Origin: Frigoriglobus tundricola | Lineage (GTDB): Bacteria; Planctomycetota; Planctomycetia; Gemmatales; Gemmataceae | DNA length: 64,000 nt | Assembly: GCF_013128195.2 (NCBI RefSeq) | Contig: NZ_CP053452.2 | Coordinates: 1,550,001-1,614,000, forward strand | Reading direction: 5' to 3' | In this document: positions 1 through 47,173 of the stretch, piece by piece | Position numbering within the stretch: the first letter of the stretch is position 1 | Layout: each line of letters starts with the position of its first letter | The notes under the pieces: generated by a model | What the model saw: the letters and a program-made list of their open reading frames with translations, nothing else | Databases searched by the model: none | What the model was told of the DNA's origin: nothing | Translations under genes and position numbers: made by a program

Positions 1-3000
1 CGAAGTACCCCATCCTGCAAGGCCCGATGACCCGGGTGAGCGACACGGCCGCGTTCGCGGACGCCGTGGCCGCGGGCGGCGCCCTGCCCTTCCTCGCGCT
101 CGCGCTGCTCCGCAAGGCGGAAACCGAAAAGCTCCTGGCCGAAACGAAGGCGAAGGTCGGACCGAAGCCCTGGGGCGTCGGCATCCTCGGTTTCGTCCCG
201 AACGAGATCCGGAGCGAGCAGCTCGAAGCGATCCGCACGCACAAGCCGCCGTTCGCGATCATCGCCGGCGGGCGCCCCGATCAGGCCCGCGAACTCGAAG
301 CGTTAGGCGTCCCGACGTACCTGCACGTACCGTCGCCGGGCCTGCTGAAGATGTTCCTCAAGGACGGCTCCCGGCGGTTCATCTTCGAGGGCCAGGAGTG
401 CGGCGGGCACATCGGCCCGCGCGCGAGCTTCGCGCTCTGGGAGGCGATGGTCGAAGTCCTCGTGGACCACATCGGCGGGAAACCCGCCGACGACCTGCAC
501 GTCGTCTTCGCCGGGGGCATTCACGACGCGCTCTCCGCGGGCATGGTCGCGGCCCTGAGCGCCGTGCTGGCGGAGAAGGGCGTGAAGGTCGGGGTGCTCC
601 TCGGCACGTCGTACCTTTTCACGAAGGAAGCGGTTGCGGGTGGAGCGATCACGGAACGGTTCCAGAAGGAAGCCCTCGCCTGTGCCGAGACGGTGCTGCT
701 CGAAACCGGCCCCGGCCACGCGATCCGCTGCATCCCGACGCCCTACGCCGACGTGTTCGAGGCCGAAAAGCGGAAGCTGCGTGCGGAGGGCAAGTCGCCG
801 CTGGAAGTCGGCATCGCGCTCGAGCGCATGAACCTCGGCCGGCTGCGCGTTGCCAGTAAAGGTGTCGATCGCGCGGCGTCGGCGAACGGCAACGGCAGCG
901 GCCTCTCGGACGTGACGCCGGACGACCAGTTCGCCCGCGGCATGTACATGATCGGCCAGATCGCCGCGCTCCGCGACACGGTCACCACGATTGCGGAACT
1001 GCACGCAGACGTGACCGGCGGCCTTGTGCTGCCGGAGGTGAACGCGGCCCCCCAGAACCCGGAACTGCCGCCGCCGCCGCCCTGCGACGTCGCGATCGTC
1101 GGGCTGTCCTGCTTCTACCCCGGTTCGACCTCCCTGTGGGGCTACTGGGAAAACATCCTCGCGAAGACCAACGCGGTCATCGAGATCCCGCCGAGCCACT
1201 GGGACTGGCGCCTCTACTACGACCCGGACCCGCGGGCCCGCGACAAGATGGTGTCGAAGTGGGGCGGGTTCATGTCGGACGTCACGTTCGACCCGCTGAA
1301 GTACGGCATCACGCCCAAGAGCATCCCGAACATCGAGCCGCTGCAACTCCTGCTGCTCGAAGCGGTGAACCAGGCGCTCGGCGACGCCGGCTACCTCGAT
1401 CGGCCGTTCGCCCGCGAACGCACCTGCGCCATCCTCGGCGTCGGCGGCGGCGGCATGCCGTTGTCCGTCTCGTACGGCTTCCGCGCCTGTATGCCGCTGA
1501 TGGACACCATCCCCGGCGTGCAGACGCGCTCCGACGACGTGATCCGGCTCGGGCAGGGGATTCTGCCCGAGTGGACCGAGGACTCGTTCCCCGGCATCCT
1601 GCTGAACGTCGCGGCCGGGCGGGTGGCGAACCGGTTCAACCTCGGCGGCCCGAACATGGCGATCGACGCCGCGTGCGGGTCGTCGCTCGCGGCCCTCTAC
1701 GCCGGCGTCCGCGAACTCAACGACGGCACGAGCGACGTCGCCATCGTGATGGGCGGCGACGCCGTCCAAACGCCTTACGCCTATGTGGCGTTCTCGAAAA
1801 CGCACGCGCTCAGCCCGAAGGGCCGGTGCCGCCCGTTCGACGCGGACGCCGACGGCATCGCGCTCGCCGAGGGCGTGGGCGTCGCGGTGCTGAAGCGCCT
1901 CGCCGACGCCGAACGCGACGGCGACCGCATTTACGCCGTCATCAAGGGCGTGGGTGCGTCCAGTGACGGCCGCGACAAGGGGCTGACCGCACCGCGGGCC
2001 GAGGGCCAGCTCCGCGCCCTGCACCGCGCCTACGCTCAAGCCCGGGTGAACCCGGCCAACGTGGCGCTCGTGGAGGCCCACGGCACCGGCACCGTCGTCG
2101 GTGACCAGACCGAGGCCCGTGCGATCGGTCAGTTGCTGCGCGATGCCGGCGGCGAAGCGCAGTCCTGCGCCATCGGCTCGGTCAAGTCGATGATCGGGCA
2201 CAGTAAGTGCGCCGCCGGCCTCGCCGGGCTCATCAAAACGGCCTTCGCCCTGCACCACAAGGTGCTCCCGCCGACGCTCGTCGAGACGCCGAACCCGAAG
2301 GCGAACCTGGACGGCGGCCCGCTGTATTTGAACACCGAAGCGAAGCCGTGGGTCCACGGGCACGACCACCCGCGGACGGCCGGCGTGAGCGCCTTCGGCT
2401 TCGGCGGGACGAACTTCCACACGGTGCTGGAAGAGTACACCGGCGACTTCCTGAACCGGCCGAACACCGGCCTGCGCCAGTGGCCGGCGGAACTCCTGGT
2501 CTGGCGCCGCGCGGACACGGCCGCGCTGCTGTCGTCACTCAAGCAGGTGCGCGACGCGATCGCGGCCGGTGCTCAACCGGCACTCGCCGACCTCGCCGCG
2601 AGCGTGTGGCAGTCGAGCAAGGCCGTGCCGGCGACCGCGCCGCTCGTCGCCGTCGTCGCGACCACGCTCGAAGACCTCAAAGACAAGATCGACCTGGCCC
2701 TCGAAGCCGTTCCCAAGGCGAGTGACGCGCACGCGGACCCGCGCGGGGTGTACTTCCGCGCGGCCCCGACCGCCGCCGGGAAGGTCGCGTTCCTGTTCCC
2801 CGGCCAGGGGTCGCAGTACCCCGACATGCTAGCGCAGGTCGCGATGGCGTTCCCCGAAGTGCGGGACGTGCTCGACCGCGCCGAGAAGGCCCTCGCGGGC
2901 GATCTCGAAAAGCCGCTGGGCCGGTTCATCTATCCGCCCTCGCCGTTCACGCCGGACCAGGAGGCCGCGAACCGCAACGAGCTCCGGCGGACCGAGATCG

Positions 3001-6000
3001 CGCAGTCGTCCATCGGGGCGACGAGCCTCGGCATGTTCCGGCTGCTCACCGCCCTGGGCGTCGAGGCCGACTACTTCGCGGGGCACAGTTACGGCGAGTA
3101 CACGGCCCTCACCGCGGCCGGCGCGCTGGCTGAAGACGACCTCATGCGGCTCTCGTACAAGCGGGGCCGTGCGATCCGCGAAGCGGCCGTGACCGCACCG
3201 GGCGGCATGATCGCCGCCGACAACACCGCGGAGGCCATCGCGCCGGTGCTGAAGGGGCTCGCGGACGTGTGGATCGCGAACCACAACTCGCCCACACAAA
3301 CCGTGATCGCCGGGACCGAGGACGGCGTGAAAGCGGCCGCCGAAAAGTTACAGGCCGCCGGCATCCGCTCGCAGCGGATCGCGGTGGCCTGCGGGTTCCA
3401 CTCGCCGCTCATCGCCGGGGCCAAGCCGGCGCTGGCGGCGGCGCTCGCCGCGGCCACGTTCACGGCCCCGGTCAAGCCGGTGTTCTCGAACACGAGTGCC
3501 GTTCCGCACCCGGCGGACGGAGCGGTGATCGCGGCACAGTTGGCCGAACACCTCGTCTCGCCGGTCCGCTTCGCGGACGAAATTCGTGCGATGCACGACG
3601 CGGGCGCGCGGGTGTTCGTGGAAGTCGGCCCGCAGGCGGTGCTGACGGGTCTCGCGTCACAGATCCTCGCCGGCCGGCCGCACGTCGCCCTGGCGACCGA
3701 TACGAAGTCGCGCCCCGGCCTCGTTCAGCTCACGCACCTGCTCGGCCAGTTGTTCGCCGCGGGGGTACCGGCGAACCTCGACCGCCTCTTTGACGGCCGG
3801 GCCACGCAGCCGTTCGAACTGGCGAAGCTGAGCGCGAGCACCGGGAAGCCGACACCGGCCCCGACCACCTGGGTCGTCAACGGCGTGCGCAGCCGCCCGC
3901 TGAACGGTCCCGAACCGCGGTTGCTCGGCCAGACGTTCCCCGCCGCCCCGGCGAGCGGCGGGGGTGCGCCCGCCGCGAAAGCGAACCCCGACCCGGTACC
4001 CGTGCTTCAGACGAAAGCACCTGCTTCTCAGACGGGCGAGAGCATCCCGAGCGATCGCGCTGCTCGGGGGGCTGACGCCCCCCGCTCGCCGAGACCAACC
4101 GCCCCCGCTCCGATCCCGACCACGCCCGCCGTCACCACTCCCTCACGAGCGATGATGCACACCACCGATACGCCGCACCCCGTTCCGGCTCCTTCGACGA
4201 ACGGGCACCCCGTGCCGCACGCGGCCGCGGAGGGCGCTGCCGCAGTGATGATGCGGTTTCAGGACGTTATGGCGCGCTTTCTCGACACACAGAAGAGCGT
4301 GATGCTCGGCTTCCTCGGCGCCTCGAACGGCACCCCGCACACGGCCGCGCCGGCACCCCCGACCAACGGGCGCGCCGCACCCAGCGTCGTGCCCTCGACG
4401 AACGGTCGGCTCGTCCCACCGCCCGTCGCGCACACGAACGGTCATCACGCGCCCGTACCGGTGTCAACACCCGCGCCCGTTAACCGCCTCGCGCCAGAAG
4501 TGGCCGCGCGGCCGGTCGCCGTGCCCGCCACGAACGGCAAGCACGACTCCAACGGCAAGCACGAGACAATAGTCAAGCAAGTCCCGGTCGAAGCCGCGCC
4601 GGTCAAGAAGGCGCCCGGGGCACTCGACCGCGACACGCTCCTCGCGCGGTTGCTCGATCTCGTCAGCGAACGCACCGGCTACCCGAAAGAGGCGCTCAGC
4701 ATCGACCTCGACCTCGAAGCCGACCTAGGTGTCGATTCGATCAAGCGCGTCGAAGTCCTCGGCGCGCTCGCCGAGAGCATCGAGGCCGGTGCGGACGGCA
4801 AGCAGCCGAACCTGGAGATGGAGAAGCTCTCCGTCATCAAGACGCTGCGCGGCATCGCCGATTACGTCATGGGCGCGCTGAACGAAGCCGCCCCGGCCCC
4901 GGCTATCGCGGCCGCACCCACGCCGCCGTCCACGAACGGCAAGCACGCCACCCCCGCGCTCGCGCCCGCCGCAACCGCCGCCGGCGACTTGCACCCCGGC
5001 GCGAGACAGGGCGACGTGCAGCGCCTCGTCGTGCGGTTGATCGACGCCCCGCTGCCGATCCGGCCGCGGTTCTCCCCGCCGACCGGGACCATCGTCATCA
5101 CCGACGACCGGCTCGGCACCGCACGGGAACTGGCCGACCGGCTCGCCGAACTCGACATCAAGACCGTTATCGTTCGTATGGGCGAAGCGAAGGACGGGTT
5201 CGCGGCCGACCTCACGGACCCGGCCGCGGTGACCGCCCTCCTGGGCCGCATCCGTGAGAAGTGCGGCCCGGTGTCCGGGCTCGTCCACCTGCTCCCGCTG
5301 GCCGAGCCCCCGGTCGGCGAAACGGCGGAACAGCGGATGCGCCGCGAGGTGAAATCGCTGTACCTGCTCGCCCGCGGGCTCGAAACCGACGTCCGCGAAG
5401 CGGGCAAGGCCGGCTCCGCGGTGCTGCTCGCGGTCACCGCGATGGGCGGCACGATGGGCTTCGGGGACGACCTACCGGCCGACTTTTTCGCCGGACACGG
5501 GGGCATCGCCGGGTTCACGAAGTGCCTCGGCTACGAGTGGCCCGAGGTGACCGTACGCGTCGTGGACGTGAGCACCGAAACGCCGGCGCCGCGCCTGGTC
5601 GAACAGCTGATGGGCGAGCTCGGCGACCCGGACGGCCCGTTCGAGGTCGGCCGCGCCGGCGAGTTCCGGAAGACCTGGCAGGTCGATCCCGGCCCGCTCA
5701 CGAAAGATGCCCCGGCCGTCGAACTCGACGCGAACGCCACCGTGCTCGTCACCGGGGGCGCCCGCGGGATCACGGCGAAGGTCGCGCGCGAAATCGCGGC
5801 CCGGTACAAGTCGAAGCTGGTGCTGGTCGGCAGCTCGCCCGCGCCGGCGACCGAATCGGCCGATACGGCGGCGCTGGCACTGCCGGCCGAGATCAAGGCG
5901 GCGCTCCTGAAGCAGCTCCCGGACGCGAAGCCGGCCGCCGTCGAGGCCGCGTACAAGCGGCTCCTGAAGGACCGCGAGATCCGCGCCAACCTGGACGCGA

Positions 6001-6605
6001 TCCGGGCCGCCGGCGGGACGGCCGAGTACCGCTGCGTGGACGTCCGCGACGCGGCCGCCTTCGGCGGGCTCATCGACGAACTGGATGCGGCCGGGGGCAT
6101 CGCCGGCGTGATCCACGGCGCCGGCGTGATCGAGGACAAGTTGCTCCGCGACAAGACGCCCGAATCGTTCGACCGCGTGTTCGGCACGAAGGTGGACAGC
6201 GCCCTCACGCTCGCCCGCAAGCTCGACCCGGCGAAGCTCAAGTTCTTCGCGCTGTTCGCGTCGATCACCAGCCGCTACGGCAACCGCGGGCAGTCCGACT
6301 ACGCGGCGGCGAACGAGGTGCTGAGCAAGCTGGCGTGCGACCTGGACCGCAAGTGGCCGGGCCGGGTGGTGTCGGTGGCGTGGGGGCCGTGGGCCGAGGT
6401 GGGGATGGTCGCCGACCTGGCGAAACACCTCGTGGCCCGCGGGTTGAAGCTGATCGAACCCGCCGTGGGCGCCGGCTTCGCGGTGGACGAGGTGATTTTC
6501 GGCGCGAAAGGCGAGCCCGAGGTGATCGTCGCCGGCGGGACCGAGCACGCGCCGAAGCCGAAGCGGCCGAGCGAGCAGCCGGTTACCGTCGGGGCCGGCG
6601 GGTGA
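1..6605 (+). CDS. PUFA-synthase-like type I polyketide synthase: ER-KS-AT-ACP-KR (5'-partial)
   Basis: Iterative multidomain synthase. The reading frame is already open at base 3 (KYPILQGPMTRVSD precedes the first ATG at 27), and this is a typical PfaD/nitronate-monooxygenase N-terminus, so the gene begins left of the window. Numbering from the ATG at 27: PfaD-like FMN enoyl reductase about 1-330; ketosynthase about 350-830 with Cys550 (DAACGSS) and His685 (EAHGTGT); acyltransferase about 920-1240 with Ser1021 (GHSYGEY); a Pro/Ala-rich linker with repeated TNG motifs; one ACP with Ser1571 (LGVDSIKR); ketoreductase from about 1900 with TGGARGIT and Tyr2092. Canonical PfaA has several tandem ACPs and PfaD is separate, so the N-terminal reductase fusion and single ACP are unusual. 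The next gene supplies a second AT and the dehydratase. The product is unknown; a long-chain secondary lipid is inferred. Confidence 0.93.
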   Translation, partial: KYPILQGPMTRVSDTAAFADAVAAGGALPFLALALLRKAETEKLLAETKAKVGPKPWGVGILGFVPNEIRSEQLEAIRTHKPPFAIIAGGRPDQARELEALGVPTYLHVPSPGLLKMFLKDGSRRFIFEGQECGGHIGPRASFALWEAMVEVLVDHIGGKPADDLHVVFAGGIHDALSAGMVAALSAVLAEKGVKVGVLLGTSYLFTKEAVAGGAITERFQKEALACAETVLLETGPGHAIRCIPTPYADVFEAEKRKLRAEGKSPLEVGIALERMNLGRLRVASKGVDRAASANGNGSGLSDVTPDDQFARGMYMIGQIAALRDTVTTIAELHADVTGGLVLPEVNAAPQNPELPPPPPCDVAIVGLSCFYPGSTSLWGYWENILAKTNAVIEIPPSHWDWRLYYDPDPRARDKMVSKWGGFMSDVTFDPLKYGITPKSIPNIEPLQLLLLEAVNQALGDAGYLDRPFARERTCAILGVGGGGMPLSVSYGFRACMPLMDTIPGVQTRSDDVIRLGQGILPEWTEDSFPGILLNVAAGRVANRFNLGGPNMAIDAACGSSLAALYAGVRELNDGTSDVAIVMGGDAVQTPYAYVAFSKTHALSPKGRCRPFDADADGIALAEGVGVAVLKRLADAERDGDRIYAVIKGVGASSDGRDKGLTAPRAEGQLRALHRAYAQARVNPANVALVEAHGTGTVVGDQTEARAIGQLLRDAGGEAQSCAIGSVKSMIGHSKCAAGLAGLIKTAFALHHKVLPPTLVETPNPKANLDGGPLYLNTEAKPWVHGHDHPRTAGVSAFGFGGTNFHTVLEEYTGDFLNRPNTGLRQWPAELLVWRRADTAALLSSLKQVRDAIAAGAQPALADLAASVWQSSKAVPATAPLVAVVATTLEDLKDKIDLALEAVPKASDAHADPRGVYFRAAPTAAGKVAFLFPGQGSQYPDMLAQVAMAFPEVRDVLDRAEKALAGDLEKPLGRFIYPPSPFTPDQEAANRNELRRTEIAQSSIGATSLGMFRLLTALGVEADYFAGHSYGEYTALTAAGALAEDDLMRLSYKRGRAIREAAVTAPGGMIAADNTAEAIAPVLKGLADVWIANHNSPTQTVIAGTEDGVKAAAEKLQAAGIRSQRIAVACGFHSPLIAGAKPALAAALAAATFTAPVKPVFSNTSAVPHPADGAVIAAQLAEHLVSPVRFADEIRAMHDAGARVFVEVGPQAVLTGLASQILAGRPHVALATDTKSRPGLVQLTHLLGQLFAAGVPANLDRLFDGRATQPFELAKLSASTGKPTPAPTTWVVNGVRSRPLNGPEPRLLGQTFPAAPASGGGAPAAKANPDPVPVLQTKAPASQTGESIPSDRAARGADAPRSPRPTAPAPIPTTPAVTTPSRAMMHTTDTPHPVPAPSTNGHPVPHAAAEGAAAVMMRFQDVMARFLDTQKSVMLGFLGASNGTPHTAAPAPPTNGRAAPSVVPSTNGRLVPPPVAHTNGHHAPVPVSTPAPVNRLAPEVAARPVAVPATNGKHDSNGKHETIVKQVPVEAAPVKKAPGALDRDTLLARLLDLVSERTGYPKEALSIDLDLEADLGVDSIKRVEVLGALAESIEAGADGKQPNLEMEKLSVIKTLRGIADYVMGALNEAAPAPAIAAAPTPPSTNGKHATPALAPAATAAGDLHPGARQGDVQRLVVRLIDAPLPIRPRFSPPTGTIVITDDRLGTARELADRLAELDIKTVIVRMGEAKDGFAADLTDPAAVTALLGRIREKCGPVSGLVHLLPLAEPPVGETAEQRMRREVKSLYLLARGLETDVREAGKAGSAVLLAVTAMGGTMGFGDDLPADFFAGHGGIAGFTKCLGYEWPEVTVRVVDVSTETPAPRLVEQLMGELGDPDGPFEVGRAGEFRKTWQVDPGPLTKDAPAVELDANATVLVTGGARGITAKVAREIAARYKSKLVLVGSSPAPATESADTAALALPAEIKAALLKQLPDAKPAAVEAAYKRLLKDREIRANLDAIRAAGGTAEYRCVDVRDAAAFGGLIDELDAAGGIAGVIHGAGVIEDKLLRDKTPESFDRVFGTKVDSALTLARKLDPAKLKFFALFASITSRYGNRGQSDYAAANEVLSKLACDLDRKWPGRVVSVAWGPWAEVGMVADLAKHLVARGLKLIEPAVGAGFAVDEVIFGAKGEPEVIVAGGTEHAPKPKRPSEQPVTVGAGG
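4063..4093. repeat. GC palindrome of a dispersed family, inside PKS coding sequence
   Basis: A 31-nt element with an 8-bp GC stem (4065-4072 and 4077-4084) around a TGAC loop. It matches 32993-33023 at 30 of 31 positions, and that copy overlaps the end of a sugar-kinase gene. Here it is read through in frame as part of the Pro/Ala-rich linker between AT and ACP. A mobile or REP-like palindrome captured by a tolerant linker is inferred. Confidence 0.7.
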
Positions 6606-20428: not shown

Positions 20429-23349
20429 TTAGCGGTACAGGCTCTTGGCGGCCTGCATGATATTCTGGTATTCCTGCACGGCGCGGAGCGGGTTCATGTC
20501 GGCGTCGTGCGCCATCGTGGCCAGGTCGCCGTACCCGTCGCGAATCGCTTGCCGGAGCAAGTCGAGCGCCTTCGTCTGATCGGCGGCGTGTGTCACCGAG
20601 GTGATCGAGTAGACGCTGGCGGCCACGTACGTGGTCTCCGCGTCTTCGGAGAGCTGCCGCGCCCGTTCGATCTCCTCGTGCGCGTCGCCGCGCCGACCGA
20701 GTCGGGCCAGAATGACGGCCCGGCCGGAACGGGCCGGAGCGAATTCGGGGTAGAGGTCGGCCACTTTCGTGGCCACAACGAGCGCCCCTTCTGTGTCCTT
20801 CAACTTATCGGCCAGCACGTGCGCCTGGTTCTGGAGCGCGACGAGCGACCGCGGGTTGAGTTCGGCGGCTTTCCGGAAGTCGGCGAGCGCGCCGTTCGGA
20901 TCGGTGTCGAGGCGGCCCCAGCCGCGGACCAGGTAGTCCGCTTCCGTCTTGAGGACGGCGTCCTTGGTGGCCGCGCGATCGGCGCCCGCGCCCGCCCGGT
21001 CGCCCCGCGCGTCACGCACGTGCGCCCGGAGGAGGCGGACGGCCAGAACCGGCGCGCCCCGCTCGAGAGCGGCCGCCAGATCGGACTCGGCCCCGGCCAG
21101 TGCCGCGGCCCGGTCCTTCTCGCCGTCCTTCCGCCACGATTTCAGCACGGCGAGCCGGTAACGGGCCAGCGCCCGGAAGCGGTACGCGTCGGCGTGGTTC
21201 GGATCGAGCGCGATCGCCTTCGTGAACTCCGCCTCGGCCCGCTCCGGCTTCTTGGCCGTGGCGTACATGAGGCCGCGCTGGTACGCCGGCCGCGGATCGG
21301 ATTTCATGAGGACGCGGGCCGTGTCGAAGCTGCTCCAGGGCCTGCTGGTACTGCCCCACTTGCTGCCGGCAGTACGCCAGACAGAACTGCGCCGCCGCGT
21401 GGTCGGGTTCCGCTTCGATGACGCGGTCGAGGAGCGGGATCGCGCCGACGTACCGCCCCTGCCCGAGCGCCGCGGCCGCGTCGAGGAACAGGGCGCGCGG
21501 GGCCGGCGCGGGGTCCTCGGGGCCGCCCACGGGCGCGACAAACGTTTCGCCGGCCGCCGGCGCCAGAACCGCGGCCTGCCGGTCCGCCGCCGCCGGCACC
21601 GTGTCGCCGAAGCAGGCCCGCGCCGCCGCGTTGAGTTTCCACGCCTCCGCGATCAGCTCCCGCCGGTCCGATTCCGGCCGGGTCACGGCCTGCCGCCACT
21701 TCGTCTCGGCGAGCAGGACCATCAGTTCCCCGAGGTCGCCGGCCAGGCCGACGCGCTCCTCGGCGGTCAGCCGGCGCACGTCCGGGCGCGCCCGCCAGTC
21801 CGCGTCGGCCGGCAGCCCGTACCCGGCGAGCAGTTGAGCGGCGCGCTCCGCCCCCCCGCGCGCTGGGCGCGGGCGTCGTCGAGGAGCACGAGATCGAGCC
21901 GCGTCGAATGGAGGGCCTCGCGCGCGGCCCGGGCGCGGCCGACGGCCTCGGTCCGCGCGAGCGCCTCCGTCCGACTGTAGACGGCCCCGCCGAGCCCGAC
22001 CGCCAGGCCGACGACGCACGCGGCGGCCAGCCGGGCGCGACGCCCGGGTTGCGCCGCCGCCACTTGCCGAACCGCTCCCGGACCGACCGCTCGCGGGCGT
22101 ACCACAGCGGCAGGTCGGCCAGGTGGCGCTCGACGTCGGTGCGCACCTCGTCCGCCGATTGGTAGCGGTCGACCGGTTCGGGCGCCAGCAGCTTGCGCAC
22201 GATCGCCTCGACCGCCGGCGTGACACCGGGGTTCAGCGGGCGGAGCGCGGGCGGCCCCTGGCGCCGCGCGGCCGTCTGCCGGTCGAGGTCGCGCAACTGC
22301 TCGCGCGTCGCCGGGAACGGCACGGTCCCGGTCAACAGCTCGAACGCGAGGACGCCGAGCGAGTACAGGTCGGTGCGCCGGTCGATCGCGCCCTTGCCGC
22401 GGGCGCGCATGTCGAGCAACTGCTCGACCGCCATGTAGGGCATCGTGCCGCCGACCATTTCCCGGTCGGGCCGCGCGGCGTCGAACGACAGGTTGAAGTC
22501 GAGCAGCATCGGCTCGCCGGTGTCGGCAAGGAGCACGTTGGCCGGTTTGATGTCGAGGTGGAGGATGCCGCGGTCGTGGGCGTGGCCCAGCCCGGCGGCG
22601 AGTTGCGCGAGCACTTGCAACACGGCACGCGGGTCACCGACAATGGGCGGCTCCGCCGCCGCCGCCCACGTCCAGACCGGCGCGCGGGCCGGTCCCGGGG
22701 GGGCCTTCGGGTCCGTCGCAGACTTCGAAGCGGATTTGCTGTCCACGGCCGTCGCGCGTGCGGCGCGGGCCGACGTGCTCTTCCGGCCGCTCAACCGCGA
22801 CGGGTGTTCGACCCGGTACGCGCGGATCAGATCGGCGAGGGTGACCCGGCCCAGGTACGGCATGCAGATGAGCTGCGCGGGGGCGGCGTCGTGGACGGAG
22901 TACACCGGGACGACGTTGGTGTGCTGGAGCCGGGCCAGGCGCTCGGCCTCGCGGGTCGGGCGGAGCGTCACCTTGAGGGCGACCGGGCGGTCGGCCAGCG
23001 CCTCCTGGTGCGCGAGGAACACCCGCGCGAACGCTCCTCGGCCGAGTTCGCCCACGAGCCGGAAGCCCTGGATTGTTTCTCCGACGCGCGGCGCGCGGGT
23101 CGCCGCGGGGAAATCGTCGCCGTCGTCGGCGCTCCAGGCCGACGCCGACAGTTTCAGATCGTCCTTCGGGGGCGGGGTCGTGGTGAGCGGATCGGGCGCA
23201 CCGGTTCCCGTGGCGCTCGACGCGGCGCGGGCCGGCAGCCGGAACGTGGGCAGGTCTTCGCCCGGCGGCACGTTCGGGGGCCACCCCGTTGCCGGCAGCG
23301 GGGTCCGCGTGAGCGTGTCGAAGCCCGGAGTGGAAGATTTTCTTGACAC
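20429..23349 (-). pseudogene. Ser/Thr protein kinase with TPR repeats, broken by three frameshifts
   Basis: Read across three shifts, this is one protein of about 970 residues. Frame A (23349 to about 22040) is the kinase: GELGRGAFARVF glycine loop, VALKV lysine, HLDIKPANVLL catalytic loop, DFNLSFD in place of DFG, GTMPYMAVEQ. Frame B (to about 21855) gives a transmembrane helix (LAAACVVGLAVGLGGAVY) and a coiled segment. Frame C (to about 21333) and a fourth segment in frame B (to 20429) give TPR-like repeats. A base seems missing near 22040 and in the C7 run at 21849-21855, and one base is extra near 21332. Coding quality is good on both sides of every shift, so sequencing error or very recent decay are both possible. 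The GTG start at 23349 is the least certain boundary. Confidence 0.75.
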
Positions 23350-23679
23350 GATTCCCACGGTCAGCGCGATGTCGGCATCATCCCGAGCAGCGCGAATGAG
23401 GACTATCACCCGTCCAGTGGGCGATAGCAACTGTAACGCGAGGGCAAAGAGGGTACTCGTGAACCCTCTAGGACAAGATCGTGAGTGTTTGCGAGAACCC
23501 GCGCGCAAAATCTGCGCGACATCTTCGACGGATGTACAAACCGACCGCGATCTTCAGCCACGGCTGAATTCGGGTCCGAATTGAGGCGGTACCTTTGAGG
23601 CTCACAGGAAGGTCCGCCGCGCCGCGTGAGCCGCTCACGGTACAATGCAGGTCGAGCCACGGACCGCAAGGGGATCCGG
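23350..23679. other. Intergenic upstream of kinase gene
   Basis: Between the divergent kinase gene and the small remnant at 23680. It contains a short palindrome at about 23564-23579 (TTCAGCC-AC-GGCTGAA) and a TACAAT hexamer at 23641-23646 suited as a -10 box for the plus-strand remnant. Nothing else is recognised. Confidence 0.35.
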
Positions 23680-42525: not shown

Positions 42526-43353
42526 TCAGCGTCGTAACTGACGCCGCAACTCGTCCAGTTCCTTCTGAAGTTTCTCGAGCTTCCTTTCCGCTTCTCCCGG
42601 TCCGACGGTGTCCGGCCTCGCGCCGATTAACACGTTGTCCCCGCCCCCGGGACGGTCCAGGGCCGCCTGGAAGTCCTTGAACTCCTCGGCGCTCAGGACC
42701 TTCTTCATCTTCTGGAGCATGTCCGCGCGGGCCTGTTCCATCAGTTTGCGGACGTTCTCCTGGTGCTCCTTGGCAACCGCCCTCGCTTCTTCCTTCTTCG
42801 GGCCCGAGAGTTTCAGATCGTCCACGACTCCTTCGACGCCGCCCCGACCCGGACTTTCGCCGATAAGGAACGGCCCGCCGGGAGCGCCCGGAGCCCTTGT
42901 CCCATCGGCCCGGAACCCGCCGACCGCACCCGGCCCCGGGCCGGGACCGGCCCCCCCGATTGGGACATCGCGGCCGCCACCGGGCCGGCCGGGGGCACCG
43001 GTCCCGGGGGCCTGAGCGGCTACCAGTTTCTGAATCTCGTCCCGGTCGAGGGCGCCGTCCTTGTTGGTATCGCCCCTGGCGATCAGGTCGTGCATCCGTT
43101 CGGGCAACTCGTCCTTGGTGACCTTGCCGTCCTTGTTCTTGTCGAACGCCATGATCCGCGTGACGACATCGTCCGCACCCAGACGCCCGGGACCGATGTC
43201 ATCCCGGACGACGATGCCCGGTCCCGGGCGCCCGGGCCCGCCGTCCCGCTGAAACCCTCCGTCCTTTGGCACGGGCGGTTGCGATACGGCCGCGCCGCCG
43301 GAGACGAGCGCCGCCATCAGGGCGGACGTCAGCCACAGTACAACGTTTCGCAC
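42526..43353 (-). CDS. Secreted EF-hand protein
   Basis: A 275-residue protein starting at GTG 43353, with AAAGGAG seven bases upstream. A signal peptide (about 1-24, ending GAAVSQP) precedes a Gly/Pro-rich stretch, then two calcium loops DKNKDGKVTKDE and DTNKDGALDRDE, another Gly/Pro-rich linker (PGRPGGGRD) and a charged helical C-terminus (KKEEARAVAKEHQENVRKLM) predicted as coiled coil. Only 31 bases separate it from the sigma/cytochrome gene upstream on the same strand, so they are probably co-transcribed. Calcium is needed by many di-haem peroxidases, which makes the pairing suggestive. Confidence 0.8.
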   Translation of the reverse strand: MRNVVLWLTSALMAALVSGGAAVSQPPVPKDGGFQRDGGPGRPGPGIVVRDDIGPGRLGADDVVTRIMAFDKNKDGKVTKDELPERMHDLIARGDTNKDGALDRDEIQKLVAAQAPGTGAPGRPGGGRDVPIGGAGPGPGPGAVGGFRADGTRAPGAPGGPFLIGESPGRGGVEGVVDDLKLSGPKKEEARAVAKEHQENVRKLMEQARADMLQKMKKVLSAEEFKDFQAALDRPGGGDNVLIGARPDTVGPGEAERKLEKLQKELDELRRQLRR

Positions 43354-43384: not shown

Positions 43385-45270
43385 CTACCGGAACGGGTCC
43401 GAGAACTTCGGATCGGAGAGGAACGTCTGGTCGGTCAGCGTCTTCAAGAAGGCGACGAGCGCGGCCTTCTCGGAATCCGTGAAGTTCAGCCGGCGCACCC
43501 GGGGGTGAAGGTTGGGGTGCGGCTTGACCTCCTTGCTGTAGTGGTCGATCACCTGTTCAAGAGTGTCGAACCGCCCGTCGTGCATGTAGGGGGCGGTGCG
43601 TTCAACGTTGCGCAAGGACGGCGACTTGAACAGACCGAGCTGACGGGCGTTGAGGGTGACGTCGCCGACGCCGCCGTCGGAGGTCTTGTGGTCCTCGTCC
43701 AGCCCGTTGTTCGTCGACGCGGCCGTGCCGAAGTGCGCGTCCTGGCCCGGCAGGTGACAGGACGCGCAGTTCCGCACGAACAGGGCCTTTCCGCGGTTCT
43801 CCTGGACCGTGTAGTTCGGGAAGTCGTCGCGCCCCGAAGCCGCTTGGGCCAGGCCCTCGTCGTACTTCGACCGGTACGACACCATCGCACGCAGGAACTG
43901 CGCCAGCGCCGCGGCGACCCGCTCTCGGGTGACCTTGCCGTCTCCGAACGCTTTCTTGAACAGTTCGGGGTACTTGTCGTCTTTGGCGAGAATCTCGACC
44001 AACCTGGTCAGATCCTGGCCCATCTCGACCGTGCTCTGGATCGGCACGAGAACGGCTTCTTCCAGGCTCCCGGCCCGCGCGTCCCAGAAGAACCGGCCCC
44101 CGAGATGGTAGCGCAGGTTGACCAGGCTCATGGCGTGGCGGTCGGTCCGCTTACCCCCGAACCCCTTGCTGAAGCGGTTCGGATCGACGAAGGCGTTCTT
44201 CTGCACGTGGCACGACCCGCAGGAGACCGTGTTGTTCGCTGACAGCCGGGTGTCGTAGAAGAGGACCCGTCCGAGCGTGGCCCCCGCATCGGTCACCGGA
44301 TTATCAGCGGGAGTGTTGTCGAACCGCCGTGCGGTCGGCGTCTTGAAGTGGGCCGGCAGGTCGATGTCGGCGTACCGATCGGGCACATCGGGCAGATGAA
44401 GCACCCGAACGGGCGGCTCGGCTCTACTGCTTCCCGGGGCGGGTTCCGGCCCCGCTGCGGTGCGGTTAACAAGCGCGCCACCCGCGGCTACTGCGGTAGC
44501 GAACAGCACGACCGCACCGGTCGCCACCGCCTTGAGCTTCTGCACGAACATCGCAGCCACCACCCTTTCGGAAAGCGCGGCGGCAGCGGGCGAGGCGGAC
44601 ACGCCGGCGCCCAGCCCTTGCGCCACGCGGACACAGGCTTCGCCCGACACCGCAGTAGCGGAACGAGTGACCCCCGCCCCCAGGAGAACGCTCCCGAGTT
44701 CGAGCCCGCGGTGGGCGAGCCGCTGGCGCAGGAGTTCCCGCCCGCGCTCGAGGAGCCCCTTCACCCGGCCCTCGGAACAGCCGAGGTGCCGGGCGGCCTC
44801 GTCCCGCGAGCGGCCGTCGAGGCAGCACACGATCAGCACCGCGCGGTAGGGGGCCGGCAACCGGGCCAGTTCCTCGTCGAGGATCGCCAGTCCTTCGCGC
44901 CAGCTCACGTCGGCGCACCGACCCTCGGGCACGCGGGCGGCTTCTTCGCTCTCGGCCCGTCGGGCGCGCCCCGGCGCAGGTTCGCCGCGGCCCGCCGCGC
45001 GACGCCGTGCAGCCACGCCGGCAGGCCGTCACCGACCGATCCAGCCTTCCGGGCCAACGTGAGGAACACGGCCTGGAACGCGTCCTCGGCGTCCTGCTCG
45101 CGATCGAGGAACCGGCGGCACGCGGCCCACACGGCGCCGCCGTGTCGGGCGACGAGGGCGGCGAACGCCGCGCCGTCCCGCTCCCGCGCGAACCGCGCGA
45201 GCAGTTCCCGGTCCGGCGCTTCGGCCTTCGCCGGTGCCGCCGCGCGGAGGTAGCGGAGTAACTGGTTCAC
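43385..45270 (-). CDS. ECF sigma factor fused through a TM helix to a di-haem cytochrome c peroxidase (frameshifted)
   Basis: Start GTG 45270 (VNQLLRYLRAAA) with GAGGGA upstream. The cytoplasmic part has sigma region 2 (LLARFARERDGAAFAALVAR, then DAEDAFQAVFLTLARKAG) and region 4 (LPAPYRAVLIVCCLDGRS, HLGCSEGRVKGLLERG). A helix (LKAVATGAVVLFATAVAAGG) follows, then a MauG/CcpA-type domain with haem motifs CGSCH and CASCH. The frame shifts once between about 44973 and 44953, just after region 2, where one base seems missing next to a G4 run. The paralogue at 45488-47173 is intact there. Topology (N in, C out) is consistent with haem attachment outside. A redox-sensing transmembrane sigma factor is inferred. 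Confidence 0.8.
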
Positions 45271-45366: not shown

Positions 45367-45394
45367 GAAAGCCCCGGCTCGCGCCGGGGCTTTC
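45367..45394 (-). terminator. Terminator hairpin after the LCCL sigma factor
   Basis: Perfect 12-bp stem (45367-45378 with 45383-45394) and a TCGC loop, downstream of the minus-strand gene ending at 45488. The surrounding 36 nt (45361-45396) are identical to 47293-47328. Confidence 0.65.
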
Positions 45395-45487: not shown

Positions 45488-47173
45488 CTACTTGACCACC
45501 ACCAGGTCATCCGGGTCGACGATCACGAGGTGGTAGTCCATTCGTTTCATTTTCGGATTCTCGATCGGTTCGACCTTACCGGTCACACGGATCGTCTTGC
45601 CCCGAAAGAACTCGCTCCCGCCTCCCCGGGCGTCCATCAAACCGAGGTTGTACAGCGGGGTGACGGCCTTGTCGCTCAAGATCACGTGGAACTCGCCGCC
45701 GGCCATCGGCCCGTGCTTCGGAGTGAACCGCAGGGCCCGCGACTCCGAGGCCCCGAAGCGGGGGCGCCGCGTGGTCTGTACCGCCGCAACTTCAAAAATC
45801 ACCGCGACCTTCTCGCCCCGCGCCGCGAGGAGCGCCTGATCGATTGTCAGCCCCTCCGGTTCCTTCACCGCCGGCCGGTCCTCTTTCGGAATCCGCTGCA
45901 ACACGAGCGCGGTGTCGGAGGGGCGTGCCGCGTCCCACGGGGCCGATTTCACGCCGTTTCGCGTGCTCCCCTCGCCGCTCCTGGGGCACCTGACGACCGT
46001 CACCGTGATGACCGCTCTCTCGCCGACCTTCACCAAGCCCGCGTGAACGGCTGCGGTGCCCAGGTCCGAATCGTAGAAGTAGAGTTCCGTTCCCGAACAC
46101 CCGCCGTCAGTACGACCGGTCACTTCGACATCGAACCGATTACCCGGGTCGCGAAGCGCCTTCGGATCGGGGTCGGCGGTAACGGGGCGTTTCGGTTGCG
46201 CTCCGTCGGCCGGCTTCCCCGGCGCGTTTAACGGGTCGGCGGCGGGCCGAAACTGTGTGACCGGACCACCCGCATCCGCCCGCGGATCGAACGCGGTTAC
46301 CGGGTTCCGTTGGGCATTCTGACCGGTTTCCCCCGACCCCGGCTCGGTTCCCTCGGCCGAGCCGGGCACGAGCGTCCCGCCCACGGCCAGGCACGTTGCG
46401 AGCACCACGACCGCCACCACCTTCAGTTTCTGCACGAGCATGGCACACACCACCTTCTCGGATAGAGCAAAGGCCGCGGATGAAACACCGGCTGTGGTCG
46501 GCCCCGTCGCGAGCCGTACTGCAACGTCGAGCAGAGCGTCCGGCACCGCGGCGGCCCCGCGGGCAACGGTCGCAGCGAGCAGCACCGCACCGAGGTCGAT
46601 GCCGCGGCGGGCCAGGCGCGACCGGAGGAGCTCGCGCCCGCGCTCGAGCCGGTCTTTCACCTGACCCTCGGAGCAGCCGAGGTGTCGGGCGGCCTCGTCC
46701 CGCGAGCGGCCGTCGAGACAGCACACGTTCAGCACCGCACGGTAGCGGTCCGGCAAACGGGCCAGTTCCTCGTCGAGAATCGCCAGTCCTTCGCGCCAGC
46801 TCACGTCGGTGGTGCGACTCTCGGGTATCCGAGCCGCAGACTCGGTTCGGGTGCGGCGGCGCTGGTTCCTTCGCACATTCGCTGCGATCCGCCGCGCGAC
46901 CCCGTGTAACCACGCGGGGAGACTGTTGCCCACGGACGCGGCCTTCCGCGCGAGTGTGAGGAACACGGCCTGGAAGGCGTCCTCGGCGTCCTCGTCGCGG
47001 TCGAGCATGCGCCGGCACGCGGCCCACACCGCGGTGCCGTGCCGGGCGACGAGCGCGGCGAACGCGTCCGTGTCGCGCTGGCGGGCAAACCGCGCGAGCA
47101 GTTCCCGGTCTGGCGCTTCGCTGAGAGTCGGCGCCGATGAAGCCGCCTGGAGGTAGCGAAGTAACTGGTTCAC
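45488..47173 (-). CDS. ECF sigma factor with TM helix and external LCCL-like and OB-like domains
   Basis: A 561-residue intact paralogue of the preceding entry, also starting GTG-NQLLRYL. Sigma region 2 (about 25-90) and region 4 (about 135-195, with LGCSEGQVKDRLERG) are cytoplasmic. A helix (VVAVVVLATCLAVGGTLV, about 255-275) is followed by a Pro-rich spacer. Then comes an LCCL-like domain (about 345-430: LYFYDSDLGTAAVHAGLVKVG and GSTRNGVKSAPW) and a C-terminal beta-rich domain resembling an OB fold (FRGKTIRVTGKVEP). No anti-sigma factor is adjacent. I infer that an extracytoplasmic ligand regulates the sigma domain, by proteolysis or conformational change. Confidence 0.85.
   Translation of the reverse strand: MNQLLRYLQAASSAPTLSEAPDRELLARFARQRDTDAFAALVARHGTAVWAACRRMLDRDEDAEDAFQAVFLTLARKAASVGNSLPAWLHGVARRIAANVRRNQRRRTRTESAARIPESRTTDVSWREGLAILDEELARLPDRYRAVLNVCCLDGRSRDEAARHLGCSEGQVKDRLERGRELLRSRLARRGIDLGAVLLAATVARGAAAVPDALLDVAVRLATGPTTAGVSSAAFALSEKVVCAMLVQKLKVVAVVVLATCLAVGGTLVPGSAEGTEPGSGETGQNAQRNPVTAFDPRADAGGPVTQFRPAADPLNAPGKPADGAQPKRPVTADPDPKALRDPGNRFDVEVTGRTDGGCSGTELYFYDSDLGTAAVHAGLVKVGERAVITVTVVRCPRSGEGSTRNGVKSAPWDAARPSDTALVLQRIPKEDRPAVKEPEGLTIDQALLAARGEKVAVIFEVAAVQTTRRPRFGASESRALRFTPKHGPMAGGEFHVILSDKAVTPLYNLGLMDARGGGSEFFRGKTIRVTGKVEPIENPKMKRMDYHLVIVDPDDLVVVK

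Follow-up and report, generated by a model that had tools for sequence, protein, structure and literature searches.

A putative membrane-tethered ECF sigma factor joined to an MbnH-like di-haem domain in a planctomycete genome

Planctomycete ECF sigma factors with WD40 repeats have been described, and such proteins were recovered in detergent fractions (PMC8567305). In other bacteria, a tethered sigma factor is reported to be released proteolytically in the case of IutY (Pseudomonas putida, ECF243), and the same has been proposed for SCO4117 (ECF52) (PMC8999054, PMC5826349). Di-haem enzymes related to cytochrome c peroxidases differ in how their haems are held: the classical enzymes use Met-His ligation and MauG uses Tyr-His ligation, and the Tyr-ligated haem of MauG reaches a bis-Fe(IV) state (PMC6405878). 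MbnH and its partner MbnP form a conserved pair, the role of which is described as unclear (PMC3621798).

Here we describe a locus of Frigoriglobus tundricola (G000; 9.86 Mb in two contigs, same genus as G010) that would bring these two kinds of protein together. It occupies positions 43385-45270 on the minus strand of the window, the whole 64,000-nucleotide stretch of DNA that was analysed, and comprises, in this order, sigma region 2, sigma region 4, a single hydrophobic helix and then a CCP_MauG domain. Judging from the sequence, we put at about 60% the probability that it encodes one protein, a young chimera in which a membrane-tethered sigma factor bears a di-haem enzyme on the outer side. 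The original prediction had placed the gene at these same coordinates and had listed these parts in this order, including the motifs CGSCH and CASCH; both points were borne out (PF04542, PF08281, a helix and PF03150).

Domains and layout of the locus

The locus starts with a GTG at 45270, with GAGG upstream. Its N-terminal part (44971-45270, minus strand, like the other parts of the fusion) lies in a first reading frame and carries sigma region 2, matched by PF04542 at about 44971-45156 with 42.2 bits (cut-off 24). Sigma region 4 (44729-44884; residues 27-78 of the query protein P0001) lies in a second reading frame and is matched by PF08281 with 41.5 bits (cut-off 25.7), and by both regions the protein belongs with the ECF sigma factors. 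Region 4, the helix and the CCP_MauG domain share one open frame (43385-45016), and region 2 is in another; the frame breaks in the linker between regions 2 and 4 (about 44930-44971), where the fusion has one base fewer than its tandem paralogue. The earlier claim that everything occurs in one gene is thus right as to the domains, but these are assembled in two frames, and for the claim to be true the break must be an assembly error.

The hydrophobic helix, AVATGAVVLFATAVAAGGALV (44468-44530), lies about 67 residues past region 4 and is followed by a tail of about 360 residues, which is the ECF-TM-tail layout of Gemmata. Just before it stands MFVQKLK, the ATG of which is a possible internal start. 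Lysines ahead of a helix favour that side remaining inside, and the attachment of c-type haem takes place outside the cytoplasmic membrane. With lysines before its helix, the protein would have its sigma part in the cell and its haem part on the outer side, which, as far as can be judged from sequence, supports the topology that had been proposed. Between the sigma part and the outer part, no Pfam match to an anti-sigma domain was found at E <= 0.01.

The membrane helix after the sigma domain is ordinary in this genome; the haem tail is not. In a survey of G000 (L163-L222), 56 of 71 ECF frames have a hydrophobic 19-mer no more than 90 residues from the sigma domain; the 71 frames include L173 and fragments from two split genes, but not the fusion. 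Since an ECF domain with a hydrophobic helix is such a common form, the anchor is not the surprise. A tail of at least 100 residues follows the helix in 54 of the 71 frames, and these tails are varied, with 17 matching PD40 and 16 matching WD40, both of them beta-propeller models. Only one of the 71 frames has a CxxCH in its tail, as a single motif, and two such motifs occur in none of the 54 other tails examined.

The di-haem domain (43385-44326) is assigned to the CCP_MauG family by its match to PF03150 (173.1 bits, cut-off 25.6) and by two CxxCH motifs, CGSCH at 44207-44221 and CASCH at 43754-43768. The best NCBIfam model is MbnH (TIGR04039), with 238.6 bits below its cut-off of 362.85, and the second is MauG (TIGR03791), with 156.6 bits far below its cut-off of 443.85. 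The best match to a solved structure is 6e1c (152 bits; listed as 'Di-heme enzyme'), which we take to be MbnH, followed by 1iqc (119 bits) and the MauG set (78-84 bits). Judged on the alignment, Tyr475 of P0001 (in DHYSK; 43538-43540) aligns with the Met in ETMGR of 1iqc, presumably the sixth ligand of the second haem. This Tyr is present in at least 90% of an alignment (A1) made up of the fusion protein, 32 related enzymes and a haem-less paralogue. Where a classical cytochrome c peroxidase has Met as the sixth ligand of the second haem, the fusion thus has Tyr instead. The description 'MauG/CcpA-like' in the original prediction agrees with the CCP_MauG family and the two CxxCH motifs, but 'CcpA-like' is not the best label, because MbnH and 6e1c score best and Tyr replaces the Met of 1iqc; MbnH is the closest type. 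For the partner MbnP, a search of the same genome gave no match, and this search was also silent on its controls.

Directly upstream of the fusion lies its tandem paralogue (45488-47173, minus strand), a single frame with an ECF part, a hydrophobic helix and a tail with a match to LCCL (27.3 bits, cut-off 22.6), a domain known mainly from eukaryotes. Among the matches listed, the ECF part of this paralogue is the best match to that of the fusion, with 84% identity in the region-2 half and 72% from region 4 to the TM helix. Between the two genes a G+C-rich hairpin followed by T-rich sequence (45368-45393, not assigned to a strand) resembles a terminator; the terminator scan found 1 site versus 3.9 expected by chance, and a consensus scan found no sigma-70-type promoter.

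On the other side, 31 bases downstream of the fusion, is the gene for an EF-hand protein (42526-43353, minus strand), which has AAAGGAG before its GTG and a leader that resembles a signal peptide. This gene and the fusion are probably in one operon. The EF-hand protein has a single Trp, located in the leader, and so it is not an obvious substrate for Trp modification. A reading in terms of metal resistance was also set aside, its one basis being a weak match of a G112 protein to PF13801 (E 0.0044; 17.6 bits, under the cut-off of 29.2).

The break in the reading frame

At the break, the fusion has 32 bases where the tandem paralogue has 33 (counted by eye), and the 71 bases around the break (44930-45000) are 85% G+C. 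ECF genes are split in 12 of 80 cases in this genome versus 0 of 65 in three congeners (Fisher p = 0.0006). The survey covered 581,060 bases of G000, comprising the window plus 60 stretches taken from a list of up to 150 region-4 matches, for the most part sites where open frames reach at least about 420 residues. In these, 68 ECF genes are intact and 12 are split over two or three frames (one each in the window, L163, L166, L168, L179, L187, L198, L208, L210 and L213, and two in L204), with L173, where region 4 alone matched, set aside from the count. Most of the 12 breaks fall in the linker that joins sigma region 2 to region 4 and is rich in G+C, and at those breaks that were printed the G+C content is 72-89%. 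The congener genes, all intact, come from G008 (55/55), G013 (9/9) and G002 (1/1), where G008 was sampled at its ECF match places and in 20 further stretches, most of them evenly spread, and L296, cut by the end of a stretch, was set aside. Three further intact ECF genes were seen in other relatives.

A codon-usage Viterbi scan for frameshifts found no excess in this genome relative to G008 at either of two settings, with 107 calls in 483 kb versus 76 in 313 kb (22 versus 24 per 100 kb) and 164 in 491 kb versus 127 in 317 kb (33 versus 40 per 100 kb); the scan is unspecific, and an initial setting missed the known break of the fusion. Elsewhere in the window, a gene for a Ser/Thr kinase with TPR (20429-23508, minus strand) is, by eye, spread over three reading frames.

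The sequences on both sides of the break look constrained. Compared with the tandem paralogue, dN/dS (Nei-Gojobori) is 0.18 in the region-2 half, 0.25 in the region-4 core and 0.29 from region 4 to the TM helix; for the haem domain it is 0.20 versus G112 and 0.31 versus G008 and G010. The fused sigma copy has evolved no faster than the paralogue, as the differences of the two to 11 outgroup ECFs of the same genome are similar (for example 92/100, 147/140 and 142/144). The terminal branch of the haem domain is 0.26 in the fusion versus 0.28 in G112, and there is no further break inside either sigma half. Low dN/dS and paralogue-like divergence argue that the sigma part is not long dead. Given these constraints, the even pace of evolution and the counts of split genes (12/80 versus 0/65), we consider it quite probable that the break is an assembly indel. 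The suspicion of a frameshift error voiced in the original prediction is thereby strengthened, as likely though unproven.

A real and recent frameshift would lead to a different product. The sigma part would then be dead or dying, the enzyme would be translated from the internal ATG with the helix as a new signal anchor, and the product would be a di-haem enzyme exported in the ordinary way, its leader borrowed. In favour of this, the frame is broken in the assembled sequence, the internal ATG directly precedes a lysine-rich stretch and the hydrophobic core and has AAAGGG 11 bases before it, and the close relatives resemble ordinary secreted enzymes. We nevertheless think this course of events unlikely, since the sigma halves are constrained and have no further break, the same type of break is found in 11 other ECF genes of the assembly and in 0 of 65 in congeners, and the ATG with the motif that follows it is also present in the intact paralogue.

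Programmed frameshifting was considered too and rejected. By eye there is no classic slippery heptamer at the break, and because none of the 65 congener ECF genes is broken, an assembly error in extreme G+C is the simpler explanation. The split ECF genes in general may be such assembly errors. Automated annotation may therefore miss or split ECF genes of this genome, as 12 of the 80 surveyed are split, mostly in the G+C-rich linker.

Origin of the haem half and the search for a second fusion

The haem half shares 57-66% identity with enzymes from G008, G010 and G112. Its haem domain forms a group (support 98/99) with the enzymes of these three genomes and of G263, which belongs to a different family of the same class. 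By eye, the enzymes of the closest relatives start with signal-peptide-like leaders. In G112 (L050) the enzyme carries a leader of its own, the EF-hand protein is encoded by a separate gene after it, and no ECF gene was matched nearby in the 10 kb read. In G008 the enzyme and the EF-hand part form one polypeptide according to Pfam, and the same is seen by eye in G010 and G263 (L005, L006, L143). The pairing of the enzyme with an EF-hand protein seems to be the older arrangement. The EF-hand protein and the MbnH-like enzyme are connected by a gene-fusion link, being fused in G008, G010 and G263 and encoded by adjacent genes in G112 and here.

The similarity of the fusion to its relatives starts about where their leaders end, which argues that the ECF-TM head stands in for the signal peptide. 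The position of this joint also bears on whether a misassembly brought an ECF fragment next to a neighbouring enzyme gene. The assembly does seem prone to indels, but the joint falls where the leaders of the relatives end, the helix and the part preceding it match the paralogue, and the EF-hand gene comes next, as in G112. We hold an artefact of this kind to be very improbable.

With P0001 as the query, no second fusion was found among the listed matches in 58 relatives (up to 25 candidates per genome), nor in 18 other genomes of the genus. The same holds for 94 other genomes of the family (up to 15 candidates per genome, E <= 1e-35) and for 391 other genomes of the phylum sample (3 candidates per genome, E <= 1e-38). 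Matches to CCP_MauG were listed at E <= 0.001 for the genus and E <= 1e-15 for the family. All 20 other family CCP_MauG loci with a frame of at least 560 residues were scanned, as were 20 of the 21 long-frame loci in the phylum sample (G273 was left out); from the genus list, G016:C173, a weak sub-cut-off match with a long frame, was likewise left out. A fusion that is split by a frameshift elsewhere, and thus has a shorter frame, could escape these searches.

Profiles of the haem domain and of the ECF domains were also run over 176 sources (175 loci and the window). The haem domain turned up in 180 frames, spread over 174 sources; a frame with both domains occurs in the window and in L002-L004 alone, all of which are the same locus. 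ECF genes lie close to haem-enzyme genes in some loci, but as separate genes. At L038 (G001; 2630-6359), for example, a gene of ECF type is arranged divergently, head to head, with a CCP_MauG gene whose frame has 771 residues.

Absence of the fusion from all relatives had been named in the original prediction as a result that would speak against it, and here the outcome went against it, as no relative searched has the fusion. The fusion is therefore lineage-specific, which does not imply that it is absent in this genome. With no orthologue in any genome searched, the joined state has no support from conservation. The ECF-TM-tail layout as such belongs to a known kind; no tail made of a di-haem enzyme, and no c-type haem enzyme in one polypeptide with a sigma factor, was found in the open-licence literature searched.

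These results have to be weighed against another possibility, in which one protein is made and its haem domain is merely an enzyme, with the sigma part controlled by something else or the fusion neutral. Consistent with this, the enzyme occurs in relatives without a sigma part, the fusion is lineage-specific, and ECF-TM heads bear varied tails in this genome, 17 of 54 with PD40/WD40-type matches. Both halves look constrained, which argues against it, though they may have been joined for only part of that time. Overall, we give this possibility a small chance.

Proposed mechanism and known counterparts

If the locus encodes a single tethered protein, as we favour, a secreted di-haem enzyme of the MbnH-like type would have exchanged its signal peptide for an ECF-TM head like that of the neighbouring membrane sigma factor. 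Both sigma regions would be cytoplasmic, one helix would run through the membrane, and the haem enzyme would lie outside, where the EF-hand protein encoded alongside may work with it. We infer a continuous frame in the living cell and loading of haem outside. A change of oxidation or ligand state at the di-haem domain might then free or activate the tethered sigma part, and release could occur via proteolysis, as in IutY, or via a conformation change. We tentatively suggest that the protein could act as a redox switch, in which peroxide or electron flow at the outer Tyr-ligated MbnH-like centre alters or cuts the tether and so frees the sigma factor. On this speculative scheme, one protein would run from redox chemistry to transcription.

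Should the frame be continuous, one polypeptide combines a sigma factor with a c-type haem enzyme. An origin by signal-peptide replacement suggests that Gemmata can build new one-piece receptors in this way, and the large ECF repertoire of planctomycetes could gain inputs whenever an ECF-TM module comes to lie ahead of a secreted enzyme and replaces its signal peptide. A similar ECF-TM head occurs with dozens of tails in one genome, which makes the switching of tethered sigma factors testable by tail swaps.

Among described systems, the Gemmataceae and other planctomycete ECFs with C-terminal tails are alike in that an extra C-terminal part comes after regions 2 and 4, and unlike in that the tails named there are WD40 repeats, not di-haem domains (PMC8567305). 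IutY and SCO4117 likewise have a sigma factor, a transmembrane part and a further module in one polypeptide; they carry an anti-sigma part or a zinc finger and other modules, whereas the fusion has no such Pfam match (PMC8999054, PMC5826349). On this Pfam scan, it does not have the anti-sigma domain that marks the IutY type. With MauG and the classical cytochrome c peroxidases the haem half shares PF03150, but it scores far under the MauG cut-off and has Tyr in place of the Met of 1iqc. The closest counterpart of the haem half is the MbnH family (TIGR04039, 6e1c), which gives both the best family and the best structure match and shares the two CxxCH motifs, the aligned Tyr and a similar end (FSDPFR against FSDPWR). 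From this family the fusion differs in scoring under the cut-off and in starting with a sigma factor, not a signal peptide.
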